NCBI GenBank assembly: GCA_900320735.1
Contig: ONTJ01000032.1
Coordinates: forward strand, 1-35,128
Length of the DNA stretch: 35,128 nucleotides
From: an uncultured Eubacteriales bacterium
Lineage (GTDB): Bacteria; Bacillota_I; Bacilli_A; RF39; UBA660
Direction of reading: 5' to 3'
Part shown: piece by piece, positions 7,115 to 34,875 of the stretch
Numbering within the stretch: position 1 is the stretch's first letter
Layout: each line of letters starts with the position of its first letter
Program-made: the position numbers and the translations under genes
Notes under the pieces: generated by a model
Database searches by the model: none
Seen by the model: the letters and a program-made list of their open reading frames with translations, nothing else
Told to the model about the DNA's origin: nothing

Positions 7115-7249
7115 CCTCCTATCAAATTTATATCAAAAAAGTCTTCATGCGAGGCATAAAGACTTAAATTTTATATTTAAGAATTCATCCCTCGGTAAGA
7201 AATTGAGCTTTAAAGCACTTACTGTCTTCGGCATTCAAACTTTTTAGAT
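7115..7249 (-). promoter_or_regulatory. Ribosomal protein L10 leader (attenuator RNA)
   Basis: The transcript between the rplJ promoter and rplJ carries the conserved L10-leader strings CCGAAGACAGTAAGTGC (7215-7231) and TTACCGAGG. It ends in a terminator stem (arms 7139-7150 and 7154-7165, loop CUC) with six U, placed before the rplJ ribosome binding site. CGAGG at about 7190-7194 can pair with CCUCG in the terminator loop region, a candidate alternative fold. The known role in Bacillota is feedback control by L10(L12)4. Confidence 0.85.
7134..7165 (-). terminator. Attenuator terminator within the L10 leader
   Basis: 12-pair stem with one U-G wobble (AAGTCTT, T-G, ATGC / GCAT, AAGACTT), 3-base loop, then six U. 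It lies 25 bases upstream of the rplJ start, so it can only act as an attenuator or as partial readthrough control. Confidence 0.8.
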
Positions 7250-26989: not shown

Positions 26990-28609
26990 TTATCCTCCTA
27001 TTTCTAATAAATCTTCAAATTCATTAGATTCTTCCTTTTTTACATTTTTATTTAACTTACGTATTATATCAGATTCATCCATCATATCAATTTTTTCTTT
27101 ATTTTTAATCTTGTCAACATATATTTTCCTTATATCATTCCAATCGTCAACTAATTGAACACAAATCTTAATATCTTTTCCAAGTACCTCTGATAGTAAT
27201 TTGTCTACATCAAGTATTTCATTATATATTTCATGAAGCAAATTTTCACTTGTTGTAGTCAAAACTACACCTGTTGATGACGCTGCTTTTATTTCAAAAT
27301 CTGATAATATATTAACAATTTTGAGTTGATCTAAATTTAATATATTATCTGCCATATTTTTTATTTTAGCACTATAATTTTGTAAATCATTTTTATTTGC
27401 GCTTGATAGTATGTTATTTATTCTTATCTTCATTAATTCGTCATGTAATGTAAAATCTTCGTTCACTGATTCTATTTCTACCGGCTTTGGTTTTTTAGTA
27501 TGAATTTCTTCTTTTTTAGGTAGTTCTTCATCCTTAATAGTACAAACATTTGTTTGTATATTATTTATTAAATCATATATCTTCATTATCATGATATCAA
27601 AAAATATTCTCTTATCCTTTGAATTTTTCATATCGTTAATTGATTTATTAATCAATAATATTATTTCTAAGACCCTATCCTTACCTAAACGTGAAACCAA
27701 TGTAGAATTTTTACTTATTTGATAATTTATTAATTCATCCCTTAACAGTTTAATAAGATCCTCAGATACATAAATGAAATTTTTTCCTTCATTTTCTATA
27801 TTATCTATTAAACTAAATGTATCATTTAAATTTTTATCTATAATTTTATTAAAAATTTGATTTAGTTGTTCCATTGATATTCTTCCATTTAATAGTAGAA
27901 CATCTTCATATTTTATATTACCACCAGAGTATGCATTTAATTGATCTAATAATCCAATTGCATCTCTCAACCCACCATTTGAGTCAAGAGCAATCATTTC
28001 AAGTGATTTGTCATCTATATTGATATTTTCTTTTTCACATATATCTTTTAATCGTTTCATTATTGTATTTTTAGGAATTGGTTTGAATTCAAATGATTGG
28101 CATCTTGAAATTATCGTAAGTGGTATTTTATGTGGTTCAGTAGTTGCTAATATAAATATTACATGTTTTGGTGGTTCTTCCAATGTTTTTAATAGTGCAT
28201 TAAATGCTCCTGTTGTAAGCATATGCACCTCATCAATTATATATACCTTATATTTAGAAATTGTTGGTAGTAAAGTTACGTGATTTCTAATTTCCCTTAT
28301 TTCGTCTACACCATTATTAGATGCCGCATCCATTTCTATTATGTCTATATTTTCATTATTATTACTATTTTTGCATATTTCACATTTTTCACACGATATT
28401 CCATCTATAGAATTAGCGCAATTGATTGATTTTGCAAAAATTTTAGCAATACTTGTCTTACCTGTTCCACGAGGTCCTATAAATAAATATGCATGTGTTA
28501 ATTTGTTGTTTTTAACTATATTTTTTAATGTTGTTATTATTATTTCTTGTCCATAAACATCATCAAATGTTTTTGGTCTATATTTTCTATACAATGCCTG
28601 ATATTCCAT
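26990..28609 (-). CDS. dnaX: DNA polymerase III subunit gamma/tau
   Basis: Clamp-loader ATPase, 539 residues. Visible are ALYRKYRPKTFDDVYGQE, Walker A FIGPRGTGKTSIAK, the zinc module CANSIDGISCEKCEIC (four Cys), IIDEVHMLTTGAFNALLKTLEEPP (DEXH-type Walker B) and ISRCQSFEF (SRC). The C-terminal ~170 residues are the poorly conserved tau part. I see no programmed frameshift signal. AGGAGG lies six bases before the ATG. An extended -10 promoter at 28636-28644 drives it, with parS site 1 just upstream. Confidence 0.97.
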   Translation of the reverse strand: MEYQALYRKYRPKTFDDVYGQEIIITTLKNIVKNNKLTHAYLFIGPRGTGKTSIAKIFAKSINCANSIDGISCEKCEICKNSNNNENIDIIEMDAASNNGVDEIREIRNHVTLLPTISKYKVYIIDEVHMLTTGAFNALLKTLEEPPKHVIFILATTEPHKIPLTIISRCQSFEFKPIPKNTIMKRLKDICEKENINIDDKSLEMIALDSNGGLRDAIGLLDQLNAYSGGNIKYEDVLLLNGRISMEQLNQIFNKIIDKNLNDTFSLIDNIENEGKNFIYVSEDLIKLLRDELINYQISKNSTLVSRLGKDRVLEIILLINKSINDMKNSKDKRIFFDIMIMKIYDLINNIQTNVCTIKDEELPKKEEIHTKKPKPVEIESVNEDFTLHDELMKIRINNILSSANKNDLQNYSAKIKNMADNILNLDQLKIVNILSDFEIKAASSTGVVLTTTSENLLHEIYNEILDVDKLLSEVLGKDIKICVQLVDDWNDIRKIYVDKIKNKEKIDMMDESDIIRKLNKNVKKEESNEFEDLLEIGG

Positions 28610-28635
28610 AAAACCTCCTATATAAATTCTATTTA

Positions 28636-28644
28636 ATTATACCA
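28636..28644 (-). promoter_or_regulatory. Extended -10 promoter of dnaX-ybaB-recR
   Basis: TGGTATAAT; no good -35. The place where a -35 would lie (about 28659-28664) adjoins parS 1, so Spo0J bound there could affect this promoter. Confidence 0.55.
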
Positions 28645-28665
28645 TAAATAAGTAAAAATAAATAA

Positions 28666-28681
28666 TGTTTCACGTGAAACA
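28666..28681. promoter_or_regulatory. parS: parS site 1 (Spo0J/ParB binding)
   Basis: TGTTTCACGTGAAACA, an exact match to the Bacillota parS consensus. The symmetry continues outward into a perfect 34-bp palindrome (28657-28690). Nucleation site for ParB-CTP sliding clamps and SMC loading. Confidence 0.95.
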
Positions 28682-28703
28682 TTATTTATTATTTTGTTTT
28701 CAA

Positions 28704-28719
28704 TGTTTCACGTGAAACA
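28704..28719. promoter_or_regulatory. parS: parS site 2
   Basis: TGTTTCACGTGAAACA, exact parS; palindromic over 22 bp (28701-28722). 38 bases from site 1, centre to centre. Confidence 0.95.
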
Positions 28720-28726
28720 TTGTGCA

Positions 28727-29158
28727 TTATTTTATTTTTGATGTTTCACGTGAAACATTGGTATTTCGTTTATTTTTAAAAAAATTAGTTAATTCACTTG
28801 AAAAATTATCATTATGAATATATTTATACATTGTTTCGGACTCAGTTTCATAATTGTTTTGTTTTGTGTAATAATAAACTGTATTTATTCTTGATTTTTT
28901 AATTATTTCTTTGCACATTGAACATGGTTCTAATGTTACATATAATTCACAATCATTTAAACGCCAATTTTTTAATTTTTTTTGTGCTTTTTTTATGCAT
29001 ATTATTTCTGCATGATTTAATATATTATTTTTTTTATTTACCTTATTATATGATTTACTTATAATATTATTATTTTTAACTATAATTGCCGCAATTGGTA
29101 CTTCATTTTTTCTTATAGCCTTATTTATTAATTTATTTAATTTATTTTCAATGTCCAT
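28727..29158 (-). CDS. tadA: tRNA-specific adenosine deaminase
   Basis: Converts A34 to inosine in tRNA-Arg(ACG). 143 residues with the ATG at 29158 (GGAGG upstream). An upstream in-frame start at 29233 would run through the SRP RNA gene and is rejected. Zinc-binding and catalytic motifs: NHAEIICIKKA (His and catalytic Glu) and LEPCSMCKEII (two Cys). The last codons (Asn-Val-Ser-Arg-Glu-Thr) are encoded by parS site 3. Gene order SRP RNA-tadA-dnaX resembles B. subtilis. No terminator follows before dnaX. Confidence 0.93.
   Translation of the reverse strand: MDIENKLNKLINKAIRKNEVPIAAIIVKNNNIISKSYNKVNKKNNILNHAEIICIKKAQKKLKNWRLNDCELYVTLEPCSMCKEIIKKSRINTVYYYTKQNNYETESETMYKYIHNDNFSSELTNFFKNKRNTNVSRETSKIK
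28742..28757. promoter_or_regulatory. parS: parS site 3, inside the tadA coding end
   Basis: TGTTTCACGTGAAACA, exact parS, forming the codons for NVSRET near the TadA C-terminus. 38 bases from site 2, the same spacing as 1 to 2. Confidence 0.95.
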
Positions 29159-29169
29159 ACTTCCTCCAT

Positions 29170-29247
29170 AAAAAAAGCACACACGAAAATTGATTGTTAA
29201 GGCTGCTATATCTCTATCCTGACCTGATTCCAATATTTCCGTTGTGC
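29170..29247 (-). ncRNA. ffs: Signal recognition particle RNA (small 4.5S type)
   Basis: Domain IV is unmistakable: GGTCAGG, then stem ATA/TAT closed by a GAGA (GNRA) tetraloop, then AGCAGCC. The ends pair (GCACA with TGTGC), followed by seven U (29170-29176). The start G at 29247 is seven bases after the -10 of a good promoter. About 71-78 nt, the short form without an Alu domain, unlike the ~270 nt RNA of B. subtilis. It binds Ffh for co-translational membrane targeting. Confidence 0.92.
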
Positions 29248-29253
29248 ATATAT

Positions 29254-29282
29254 AATATACTATTTATTTTATAATTAGTCAA
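29254..29282 (-). promoter_or_regulatory. Promoter of the SRP RNA
   Basis: TTGACT (29277-29282), 17-base spacer, TATATT (29254-29259). The -35 touches parS site 4 directly. Confidence 0.8.
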
Positions 29283-29298
29283 TGTTTCACGTGAAACA
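29283..29298. promoter_or_regulatory. parS: parS site 4
   Basis: TGTTTCACGTGAAACA, exact parS, immediately upstream of the SRP RNA -35 box and about 540 bases from site 3. Confidence 0.95.
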
Positions 29299-29309
29299 TT
29301 ATAAATTAT

Positions 29310-29330
29310 TTTTGTTCGCTTTTTGTTCGT
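29310..29330. repeat. 21-bp direct repeat, copy A (left of the Noc site)
   Basis: Two TTTTGTTCG units 11 bases apart. Identical over 21 bases to copy B at 29352-29372. The two copies flank a 21-base interval that holds the Noc-binding palindrome. Function unknown. Confidence 0.85.
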
Positions 29331-29336
29331 AAAAAC

Positions 29337-29350
29337 ATTTCCCGGGAAAT
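29337..29350. promoter_or_regulatory. Noc-binding site (NBS)
   Basis: ATTTCCCGGGAAAT, exact match to the B. subtilis Noc-binding consensus. Noc is a ParB paralogue that blocks division over the nucleoid. Its presence beside parS sites implies that this organism has both Spo0J and Noc. Confidence 0.88.
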
Positions 29351-29351
29351 A

Positions 29352-29372
29352 TTTTGTTCGCTTTTTGTTCGT
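29352..29372. repeat. 21-bp direct repeat, copy B (right of the Noc site)
   Basis: Identical 21-base copy of 29310-29330, 42 bases away. GTTCG units at both sites are all in the same orientation, so they are not a LexA box (which needs inverted GAAC/GTTC). Confidence 0.85.
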
Positions 29373-29376
29373 TTTT

Positions 29377-29413
29377 AAAAAATAAAAGTTATTGAATTAC
29401 TCTTCAATAACTT
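29377..29413 (-). terminator. Terminator of the recF-gyrB-gyrA operon
   Basis: Perfect 11-bp stem AAGTTATTGAA/TTCAATAACTT (29386-29396 with 29403-29413), 6-base loop containing the gyrA stop codon, followed by U-rich sequence. Confidence 0.85.
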
Positions 29414-31835
29414 CTGTATCTTCACTTTCACTTGTTGCAATTGTTGTAACTTTTTGATCATCTTTTAAGTGGATTAATCTTACACCTTGTGTAACTCTAC
29501 TCATTTTAGATACTTGACTCATAGGTATTCTAATAATTATTCCACTATCTGTTATAATCATCAAATCTTCATTATCACTTACATTTTTAACTGATACTAA
29601 ATTACCATTCTTTTCAGTAATATTTAAGGCCTTAACACCTTTACTTCCTCTATGTGTAAGTCTGTATTCATCAATATTTGTTCTCTTTCCATATCCTTTT
29701 TCAGTTATTATTAATATGTCACTTGTCTTATCGACTTTTTCAGCACTAACACACATAACGTCTTCTGGTATATCAATTCCTCGTACACCACTTGCAGTTC
29801 TACCCATTACTCTTATTTCATTTTCATTAAATCTGACAAGTCTTCCATTTGATGCACCTATTACTATTTCATTTTCTCCATTTGTCTTTGATACAAATAA
29901 TAATTCGTCTTCTTCTTTTAATGTTATCGCAATTTTACCACTTTTTCTAATACTATCAAATTCTGAAAGTTCTGTTCTCTTAACAAGACCATTCTTTGTT
30001 ACAAATGTAATATACTTATCTTCATCATCCTTAGATACATTCAAAATAGTATTAATTTTTTCATTTTTTTCTAGTTGTAATAAATTTATTATTGGTAATC
30101 CTTTTGCTTGTCTTGAAAATTCTGGTATTTCATAACCTTTAATTCTATATACTTTTCCTTTGTTTGAAAAGAATAATATGTGATCATGTGTTTTTACTGT
30201 TACCATTTGTTCAACAAAATCTTCCTCATTTGTAGACATACCTTTAACACCAACTCCACCTTTATTTTGAAGTTTATAAGTGTCTGTAGTAAGTCTCTTA
30301 ATATAACCCTTATTAGTTAAAGTTATTATAATATCTTCAACTGGTATTAGTGATTCATCTTCAATGTAATCAATAGCTGTCATATCTATATTTGTTCTTC
30401 TTTCATCAGCATATTTATCTTTTATTTCTTGAAGTTCTTCTTTTATGATAGCTAATACTTTTTCTTCACTTGCAAGTATTGATTTTAATTCTTCTATTTT
30501 TGCAAGTAATTCTCTTAATTCATTTTCAATTTTTTCTCTTTCTAATCCAGTTAATCTACGAAGCTTCATTTCTAATATTGCATCAGCTTGTAAATCTGTA
30601 AGTCCAAATTTACTCATTAATCCATTTTTAGCTTCTTCATCTGTTTTAGATCCTCTTATTAGTTTAATTACTTCATCTAAGTGATCAAGTGCAATCTTTA
30701 AGCCCTCTAATATATGAACTCTTTTTTCTGCTTTATCAAGTTCATATTTACATCTTCTGATTATTATTTCCTTTTGATAATCAATATATTTAGATATGAT
30801 ATCCTTTAATCCAAGTGTTTTTGGTACACCTTGATCTAGCATTAAAAATATTATTCCATAATTTGTTTGAAATTGAGTATGTTTATATAGATTATTTAAT
30901 ACTACTTGTGCATTTGCATCTTTTTTTAGTGTTATTGTTATTTTAACACCATCTTTAAGATCTGTATGATAGTCTGCAATTCCATCTATGGTTTTATTGT
31001 GTACAAGTTCTGCTACTTTATTTTTTAAGTCAGATGTATTAACACCATAAGGTACTTCATCTATTATTATTTGATGTTTACCACCAACTTCTTCAATTCT
31101 CGCTCTTGATCTAATTGTAATTGTTCCTCTACCTGTTTCATAAGCTTTCTTTATTCCACTATTACCAAGTATTAGAGCTCCTGTTGGAAAGTCGGGACCT
31201 TTTATATATTTCATTAATCCATCAGTATCTATTTCCGGATTATCAATATATGCTATACATCCATCTATTACTTCTCCCAAGTTGTGAGGTGGAATATTTG
31301 TAGCCATACCAACGGCAATTCCCATTGTTCCATTTACTAATATATTTGGAAATCTTGATGGTAACACAACTGGTTCTTTTTCTGTTTCATCAAAATTTGG
31401 AATAAAGTCTATTGTATTTTTTCCTATATCTCTTAATAATTCTAGTGAAATCTTAGAAAGTCTAGATTCAGTATAACGCATTGCTGCAGCACCATCACCA
31501 TCAATATTTCCAAAATTTCCATGACCATCTACAAGTGGCGCTCTATAACTAAAGTTTTGAGCCATTCTTACCATTGCTTCATATATTGATGAATCCCCAT
31601 GTGGATGATATTTTCCCATTACATCTCCGACAATTCTTGCCGATTTTCTGTGTGGTTTATCAGGCATATGTCCTGACTCAAACATTGACCATAAAATTCT
31701 TCTATGTACTGGTTTTAATCCATCTCTTAGATCTGGTAATGCACGAGAAACTATAACACTCATTGAATAATCTATAAAAGATTGTTCTATTTCAGTAACT
31801 ATATCATTTTCTTCTAATTTATCTTTAATATCCAT
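29397..31835 (-). CDS. gyrA: DNA gyrase subunit A
   Basis: 812 residues. Breakage-reunion domain with catalytic Tyr121 ([10 protein letters not shown]), the quinolone-determining region [14 protein letters not shown] (Ser82/Ser83 and Glu86 at the usual contact places, no obvious resistance change), and a coiled-coil gate (about 365-490). The C-terminal beta-pinwheel starts at about 500. Its GyrA box is QNKGGVG (residues 523-529) rather than the canonical QRRGGRG-like form, so DNA wrapping may be weaker. It is 15 bases after gyrB, same operon, ending in a strong terminator. GyrA rather than ParC because of the gyrB-gyrA-recF context and pinwheel repeats. Confidence 0.96.
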
Positions 31836-31850
31836 CTATAAAACTCCCTT

Positions 31851-33770
31851 CTATATATCCAAATTACTATAAGTAGCATTTGCTTCTATAAATTCTCTTC
31901 TAGGCTCTACTTCTTCGCCCATTAATTTTGAGAATGCCGCATCAGCTTCTATTGCATCAGCTACTGTAATTTTTCTAAGTACTCTTGTATTAATATCCAT
32001 TGTTGTTTCATTTAATTGATCTGCATCCATTTCTCCTAAACCTTTCATACGGTTTATTACACAACCTTTTCTCGCAGATTCTGGTAATTTTGAAAGATAA
32101 TCTTCTTTTTCCTCTTCTGTTAAAACATATTTAGTAGTTTTACCGTGTTTTATACTAAATAATGGTGGTTGTGCAGCATATACATGTCCAGCTTCAACAA
32201 TTGGTCTAAAAAATCTATAAAATAATGTTAGTAACAATACTCTTATATGTGATCCATCAACATCGGCATCAGTCATTATTATTATCTTATTGTATCTAAG
32301 TTTACTTAAATCAAATTCTTGACCTATACCTGTTCCAAAAGCAGTTATTATTGTTCTTATTTCTTCATTTGATAAAGCTTTATCCATTCTAGCTTTTTCA
32401 ACATTCAATATTTTTCCTCTAAGTGGAAGTATAGCTTGAGTCATAGAATTACGACCTACTTTAGCAGATCCTCCAGCTGAATCTCCCTCGACTATAAATA
32501 TTTCACATATTGAAGGATCTTTTTCCTTACAATCAGCCAATTTACCACCAAAGTTTACTACATCTAAATCACTTTTTCTTCTTGTTAATTCTCTTGCTTT
32601 CTTAGCTGCAATTCTTGCACGAGATGCAGTCATTGCTTTTTCTATTATTATTCTTGCTTCATCAGGATTTTCTAATAAAAATCTTTCAAAACCATTTGAA
32701 AATATATTATCAGCTAATTTTCTAACTTCTGAATTACCTAATCTTCCTTTTGTTTGACCTTCAAATTGTGGATTAGGATGTTTACAAGATATAATCATTG
32801 TAAGTCCTTCTTTAACATCATCGCCTGTTAGAGATTCATCTTTATCTTTTAATATATTATTCTTCTTAGCATAATTATTAATAACTCTTGTTAATGCTCT
32901 TCTTACACCTTCTTCATGTGTACCACCATCATGTGTATTTATGTTATTAACGAATGAATAAATACTATCTGAATAACCAGAATTATATTGCATAGCAACT
33001 TCGAACATTACCCCATCTTCTTCACCTGTCAAATGTATTATTTCATCATGTATTGGAGTTTTATTTTTATTTAAATATTTAACATATTCACTTATTCCAC
33101 CTTCATAATGGAATGTTTCACCTGTAGAATTGTCATCATTTCTATCATCTCGTAAAGTCAATTTAAGTCCTTTATTTAAAAATGCAAGTTCTCTTGTTCT
33201 AACTCTTAGAGTATTGTAATCATAAATATCTGTATCAAATATTTCAGAATCAGGTTTAAATGTTACTGTTGTTCCAGTTCTATTTTCTTCACAATCACCT
33301 ATTACAGTTAATTGTTTTTCTGTTTTTCCACCATCTTTAAATTTTGCTTCATATATTTTTCCATCTTTATATACTCTAACAACTACCCATGAAGAAAGTG
33401 CATTAACTACAGAAGCACCTACACCATGTAGACCTCCAGATACCTTATATCCTCCTCCACCAAATTTACCACCTGCATGAAGTACTGTATAAACTGTTTC
33501 TACGGTTGATATTCCTGTTTTTTTATGTATTCCAACTGGAATACCTCTACCATTATCCTTAACTGTTATAGAATTATCTTTATTTATAATAATTTCTATA
33601 TTATTACAAAATCCAGCAAGAGCTTCATCTATTGAATTATCTACTATTTCCCATACTAGATGATGAAGACCTTTAACATCTGTTGTACCTATATACATAC
33701 CTGGTCTTTTTCTTACTGCCTCAAGTCCTTCTAATACTTGAATTGCGGATGCATCATAATTGTCTTTCAT
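31851..33770 (-). CDS. gyrB: DNA gyrase subunit B
   Basis: 639 residues, full length. GHKL ATPase domain ([39 protein letters not shown]), transducer domain, and Toprim domain with [13 protein letters not shown] (Glu) and [12 protein letters not shown] (DxD). C-terminal [10 protein letters not shown] motif. It supplies the ATPase for negative supercoiling with GyrA. One-base gap after recF and 15 bases before gyrA, typical operon. Confidence 0.97.
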
Positions 33771-33771
33771 T

Positions 33772-34875
33772 TTATTTTACCTCCCTTACTACCTTTGCAT
33801 TATCTACTTTAAATATATCTGCTTCTTTTAGTAATTTTCTACTTACATTTTTTAAATCAGTTGATGTTATAAATACCTGCAGATCATTATTTATATATTG
33901 AATAATATTATTTTTTTTATTTTTATCAAGTTCACTAAATATATCATCAAGTAAAAGGATCGGATTAACTTCCTTAATATTTTTAAATATTTCTACTTCT
34001 GATAATTTTATTGCCAGAATAGCTATCCTATGTTGACCTTGAGAACCATAATTATTTATTTTTATATTATCAATATATACAGAAAAATCGTCTTTGTGTG
34101 CACCATGTAATGTTACTTTCTGAAATAATTCATTTTCAAATGATTTATCAAATTTTTCTTTTATTTTCTTATACATATTTTCTTGTGTATCTACTTCAAT
34201 AAAAGTTTCATATTTCACATAAATATTATCTTTTTTTGTTAATCCATAATATATTTTCTTTATATATTTATTTATCTCTTTTATATATTCATCCCTATAT
34301 TTTATAATTTTAATATTTTCTTTTATTAATTCTTCAGTTAAAACATTAAAATATACTCTATCAAAATTTTTATTATTTTTTAAATAATCATTTCTACTTT
34401 TTAATATTTTATTATATTTATAAATACATTTAATATAATTATTATAAAGTTGACCTATTTCAATATTTAAAAAATACCTTCTATCAGATGGAGTTCCTTT
34501 TATTATTTCTAAATCATCAGGACAAAACATGATTACATTAATATTAGATAAATAATCACTTATTTTTTTAATAGGATTATCATTAATACTAACTTTTTTA
34601 CCCTTACTATTTAGAATAATTTCATATTTGCTTGATAAAGATGAATTTTTTTTAACCTTTCCACTTACTTTTAAAAATTCTTCATTATTTTTAATAATGA
34701 AATTTTCTTTAGTAGTTCTATGTGACTTAGTTATAGATAAAAAATATATACTCTCTAATATATTAGTTTTACCTTGAGCATTATTTCCAATGAAAATATT
34801 AATTTTTTTGTTAAATTTAAGCTTCAAATTAGAATAATTTCGATAATTTTTTAACTCAATTTCTTTCAAAAACAT
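33772..34875 (-). CDS. recF: DNA replication and repair protein RecF
   Basis: SMC-like ATPase that helps load RecA at gaps, 367 residues. Walker [15 protein letters not shown] (about residues 28-41), signature [11 protein letters not shown], Walker [17 protein letters not shown]. The central part is Lys/Asn/Ile-rich. The ATG is preceded by only a weak AGGT. A better ribosome binding site belongs to a 10-codon minicistron (34866-34898) that overlaps its start, so translation may be coupled. The usual upstream dnaN and S4-domain genes are absent; a ComK-like gene lies there. Confidence 0.96.

Follow-up and report, generated by a model that had tools for sequence, protein, structure and literature searches.

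A predicted Noc-binding site accompanied by tandem CGAACA repeats next to gyrA in an uncultured Eubacteriales bacterium

We describe a 63-bp element from an uncultured Eubacteriales bacterium that looks, judging by its sequence, like a two-part docking site in which a predicted Noc-binding site (NBS) is combined with tandem CGAACA repeats at a fixed distance. Our preferred interpretation, to which we assign a probability of roughly one half, is that Noc loads here at a composite site belonging to a centromere region near the origin, with a putative second protein on the repeat pair. We know of chromosomal Noc sites only in the form of isolated palindromes. An accessory repeat that is conserved in fixed register could serve as bait in the search for a factor responsible for loading, blocking or tuning a CTP-clamp protein.

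Anatomy and genomic setting of the element

The window, i.e., the whole stretch of 35,128 nucleotides that was analyzed (contig ONTJ01000032.1), belongs to an assembly of 797 kb that is 72% complete and has a G+C content of 23%. The first-pass annotation described an exact Noc-site palindrome within a 21-base interval between two identical 21-base repeats downstream of gyrA, and both the arrangement and the placement (gyrA at 29397..31835 on the minus strand) are borne out by the sequence. An exact NBS, ATTTCCCGGGAAAT, occupies 29337-29350, and no other match with at most two mismatches occurs in the window or in the 797-kb assembly. Gaps of 6 bp and 1 bp separate it from the two copies of the 21-bp repeat TTTTGTTCGCTTTTTGTTCGT (29310-29330 and 29352-29372), each of which reads on the minus strand as CGAACAAAAAGCGAACAAAA, that is, as a tandem CGAACA-N5-CGAACA. 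With at most two mismatches the repeat pair is found at only two places in the assembly, both in the 63-bp element, and the exact count of CGAACA-N5-CGAACA in the assembly is likewise two, both in the element. Inverted CGAACA half-sites were not found at the element, where the repeats are direct only. TTTTGTTCG occurs four times, beginning at 29310, 29321, 29352 and 29363, so the spacings of 11, 31 and 11 bp originally reported are correct but each of the reported starts was one base too high. The accompanying claim that all units lie on one face of the DNA holds for this copy but not for other genera, where the unit spacing is 12 rather than 11 bp, and consequently only the unit nearest the NBS is strictly phased. 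The features of the element and its surroundings are as follows.

26990..29161, minus strand: dnaX (26990-28609) and tadA (28727-29161), downstream of ffs; tadA scores 87 bits, under its 150-bit cut-off, and is assigned from position and similarity
28666..28757, no strand: three parS with a 38-bp period (28666-28681, 28704-28719, 28742-28757), exact matches, between dnaX and tadA, the third falling inside the tadA 3' end
29161..29257, minus strand: small SRP RNA gene, ffs (Rfam RF00169, 49.7 bits)
29254..29282, minus strand: sigma-70-like SRP RNA promoter read from the sequence, with -35 TTGACT at 29277-29282, -10 TATATT at 29254-29259 and a spacer of 17
29283..29298, no strand: parS TGTTTCACGTGAAACA, exact match, directly adjoining the SRP RNA promoter at its -35
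29310..29330, minus strand: direct-repeat pair 3' of the NBS on the minus strand, CGAACA units at +21 and +32, from sequence
29337..29350, no strand: NBS ATTTCCCGGGAAAT, exact match, single copy in the genome, same location in 8/8 genus genomes
29352..29372, minus strand: direct-repeat pair 5' of the NBS on the minus strand, CGAACA units at -21 and -10, from sequence
29397..31835, minus strand: gyrA (NCBIfam equivalog, 1176.7 bits), its 3' end carrying a stem-loop that resembles a terminator
31851..34875, minus strand: gyrB (31851-33770) and recF (33772-34875), in an origin-proximal gene order

Read along the minus strand, the order is recF-gyrB-gyrA, terminator, element, parS, SRP RNA promoter, SRP RNA, tadA, the three parS, dnaX, ybaB and recR. 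Because the element is placed between the gyrA terminator and the SRP RNA promoter, whose TTGAC and TATA are kept across the genus alignment, it probably lies outside transcribed DNA. The suggested link to parS is a loose one: parS is adjacent here, but it is found in the gyrA-ffs gap in only two of the eight genus genomes, and the distance from the NBS and its pair to ffs or parS varies among genomes. Elsewhere in the window, a ribosomal protein L10 leader (RF00557) is located at 7126-7249 on the minus strand.

Conservation of the repeat pair with the NBS

The close relatives are "Bacilli bacterium" MAGs, at least one of them from an animal gut, and the lineage may be a reduced one of the RF39 type. 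All genomes compared here are MAGs. All eight genomes of the genus (MAGs, 64-94% complete) contain one exact NBS at the same place with a pair on one or both sides; the 3' pair, equivalent to 29310..29330, is kept in seven of them and G006 has the other pair instead. Set against the divergent DNA around them, the NBS block, the pair and the SRP promoter are conspicuous in the genus alignment. Measured from the NBS start, the closest CGAACA invariably lies at -10 or +20/+21, and the second unit follows 11 or 12 bp beyond. The association extends to two more genera and to NBS elsewhere near the origin. G106 (genus g93) has four NBS, of which three carry a pair at +21, including one that is inverted in the genome, upstream of dnaX, while the NBS without a pair sits in coding DNA. 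Pairs likewise accompany NBS in G237 and G395, at +21/+33, and in all three of these genomes they are found with the NBS at sites away from ffs. In genus g39, the pair is present at -22/-10 in G045 and G382 and is lacking in G217 and G311. G170 contains a degenerate version of the pair between two NBS.

Within the pair lineages, a pair lies within 50 bp of 16 of the 26 NBS compared to 2 of the 38 parS (Fisher p 1e-6, NBS sites inside one genome possibly being copies of one module and hence not fully independent), and both of these parS adjoin an NBS. When 84,980 species were scanned for exact copies of the NBS together with the pair, only six records emerged, all from the pair lineages. Since the pair occurs only at the element in the assembly and its fixed offsets are conserved in relatives, we consider that it did not arise by chance. 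The first-pass annotation proposed that the repeats travel with NBS copies, are conserved in relatives and are not explained by Noc alone, and named as contrary evidence other NBS without repeats, want of conservation or the absence of a noc gene. These were looked for, and the findings agree with the proposal: pairs are kept with NBS at fixed offsets in three genera, and a noc gene is present (see below).

Most NBS-bearing genera of the family are without the pair, which indicates that Noc can generally function without it. In a tree of GyrA C-terminal parts, g39 is placed next to g1, the genus studied here (support 0.97), and g93 falls in a neighboring clade whose other members lack the pair; this distribution suggests that the pair is either old and often lost or was gained more than once.

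parS/NBS arrays and the Noc and ParB proteins of the family

The gyrA-ffs gap is a parS/NBS array across the family: in the stretch upstream of the SRP RNA, parS is found in 100 and the NBS in 53 of 118 family genomes (at most two mismatches). The family NBS palindrome continues to be symmetric for 5 bases further on each side (76-99% per position, falling to background beyond).

By its A/T-rich symmetric flanks, the family NBS is thus about 24 bp long. Several family genomes have a regular parS-NBS spacing of 34-47 bp in the gyrA-ffs gap, and in G029 (L028, G029:C1 from 89140) at least 12 alternating NBS/parS units with a period of about 79 bp lie beside the SRP RNA and reach the contig end.

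The genome encodes a ParA-ParB pair (L004) and a Noc-like protein (L005), so that the region combines parS with parA-parB in the genome and an origin-proximal position, as in a ParABS centromere. The Noc-like protein has NCBIfam nucleoid_noc as its best match (281 bits, under the 315 cut-off) and best matches the solved Noc chains 7nfu and 7ng0. The contact residues are Q-K-N-R in Noc (G000) and R-I-K-G in ParB, which fit the NBS and parS, respectively. The Q/K/R pattern is found in 29 of 30 family Nocs, the exception being G030 with T at 179; a single lysine at 179 or 184 suffices for NBS binding, given Q173 and R201 (PMC7383237). The motifs GERR and ENIQR of the CTPase region are retained. 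As in B. subtilis, noc follows rsmG; the remaining neighbors are mnmG and a penicillin-binding protein, and we rejected the idea that a partner is encoded beside noc.

An N-terminal membrane helix was not found in any of the 30 family Noc proteins examined. The start of Noc lies 17 residues before NRFQPR, with an in-frame stop close upstream in G006, and this short N-terminus leaves no room for a membrane helix. In nearly all family Nocs the start codon is 14-24 residues before NRFQPR (the start is uncertain in 3 of the 30, which have no ATG in the N-terminal stretch), and the match to 7nfu begins at chain residue 25. In B. subtilis, removal of the helix abolishes Noc function and there are about 70 NBS (PMC4331003). 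NBS scattered round the chromosome were not found in the eight genus MAGs, each of which has its one exact site. The proposed link with nucleoid occlusion is therefore not supported in the form given: a Noc without a membrane helix and with one exact site is more likely to act in origin organization, segregation or replication control, and it resembles rather an additional ParB close to the origin. In this family, the helix-less Noc and the parS/NBS arrays that lie between gyrA and the SRP RNA suggest how Noc can serve the centromere in the manner of a second ParB instead of inhibiting division. In other family Nocs the C-terminal domain is preceded by a long linker of low complexity. The linkers of the Noc proteins L215-L244 contain recurring short motifs, among them NPGFMDVxKIE..AQDI and FFN.L..E.ANM, which are possible partner-binding motifs.

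Discussion

The element shares features with several known systems. With Noc/NBS of B. subtilis it has in common the identical 14-bp NBS, the rsmG-noc gene order, the NBS-type contact residues and the CTPase-region motifs, but it differs in the single exact NBS per genome of the genus rather than about 70, in the missing N-terminal membrane helix and in the CGAACA pair on the NBS. As in chromosomal ParABS systems, there is a canonical parS beside the element, a ParA-ParB operon in the genome and an origin-proximal cluster; however, the element itself uses a Noc-type site, and parS is a neighbor at variable distance. The parS of plasmid P1, with its A-boxes and B-boxes, is also a composite centromere with two different motifs in helical register, although its sequences differ from those of the element.

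Known Noc and ParB proteins load in a CTP-dependent manner and subsequently act as sliding clamps (PMC8429893). Following this biochemistry, Noc would nucleate at the NBS and, with CTP, close into a sliding clamp. A putative sequence-specific second protein would sit on the CGAACA pair, two helical turns from the NBS, where it could touch Noc or halt its sliding on that side, and would in this way help, anchor or confine Noc and so set where or when the chromosome's single Noc complex forms. Possible, if doubtful, is the more specific proposal that a membrane-free Noc loads beside a dedicated second factor, perhaps LexA, in which case the element would be a two-key loading site for a CTP-clamp protein. 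If LexA were this factor, the organization of the origin would respond to DNA damage.

That LexA, or a closely related protein with the same half-site, occupies the pair beside Noc, with the Noc complex tied to the DNA-damage state and LexA leaving upon SOS induction, is in our estimation unlikely, even though CGAACA is the exact LexA half-site of this genome, as seen in the operators of lexA (CGAACAATTGTTTG, two in G000) and recA (CGAACAATTGTTCT). Intergenic CGAACA is rare, with 15 occurrences in the genome, of which four are in the element, two at lexA and one each upstream of recA, uvrA and pcrA, and among 12 genomes that bear the pair or are sisters of those that do, LexA was found in 11. 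However, LexA operators are inverted, whereas the units of the element are direct, 11-12 bp apart and without a TGTT half in place, for which reason we treat the half-site identity as a lead only. Moreover, LexA was not found in G007 (90% complete) despite two intact pairs there, and the pair almost always reads CGAACA, whereas CAAACA is readily accepted in LexA operators. A precedent exists in plasmid P1 ParB, whose two domains recognize two kinds of boxes, and by analogy Noc itself could bind the pair through a second DNA-binding surface; a fixed distance on either side of the NBS and a near-exclusive association with it would then need no second protein. We regard this as rather unlikely, given that many family Nocs of the same architecture coexist with NBS without the pair and that no extra DNA-binding domain is visible in the genus Noc sequence.

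The remaining explanations are less probable still. In the genus, the A-tracts that precede the ffs promoter are phased by 11, 31 and 11 bp, which could be explained without any specific protein if the A-rich repeats were curved by their own sequence or acted as an UP-like element for SRP RNA transcription. This is improbable considering that the pair follows the NBS away from ffs in G106, G237 and G395, that its distance to the ffs promoter varies, and that the distal A-tract is lost (CGAACACCT, CGAACATTT, CGAACTTTT) whereas CGAAC is kept. The UP-element version is contradicted by G106. The first-pass annotation raised the possibility of a bent nucleoprotein structure; bent DNA by itself is unlikely, since conservation does not extend to the A-tract of the distal unit. 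The layout TGTTCG-N5-TGTTCG is shared by the sites of WalR, PhoP and similar proteins, and an OmpR/PhoB-family response regulator could bind such an 11-bp direct repeat. This is highly improbable: no PF00486 protein is present in G001 (94% complete) or G002 (89%), both of which bear the pair, the spacing is 12 bp in other genera, there is no regulon for an OmpR-type regulator, and the restriction of CGAACA-N5-CGAACA to the element argues against a regulator with many such sites. RemA was rejected as a partner of the pair, its known sites being poorly conserved 7-bp blocks (PMC8481266). Coincidence or neutral hitch-hiking, which would fit the loss or original lack of the pair in some genera of the family, is scarcely credible in view of the fixed offsets in three genera and both orientations within rapidly diverging intergenic DNA.

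We also considered a promoter regulon for the pair and rejected it. Pair-like hits without an NBS (at most one mismatch) number about 15 in 386 family genomes, compared to about 27 for a reversed-pattern control (both counted by hand from the result table). They include hits upstream of OLE RNA (G407), tmcAL (G264), nrdD (G009), a gene in G148 and recombinase elements and, being no commoner than the control, are taken as background. The hit in G407 (L194, G407:C116) is an exact CGAACA pair just upstream of the -35 of OLE RNA (RF01071, 227 bits); the count fits chance, yet the place is suggestive.
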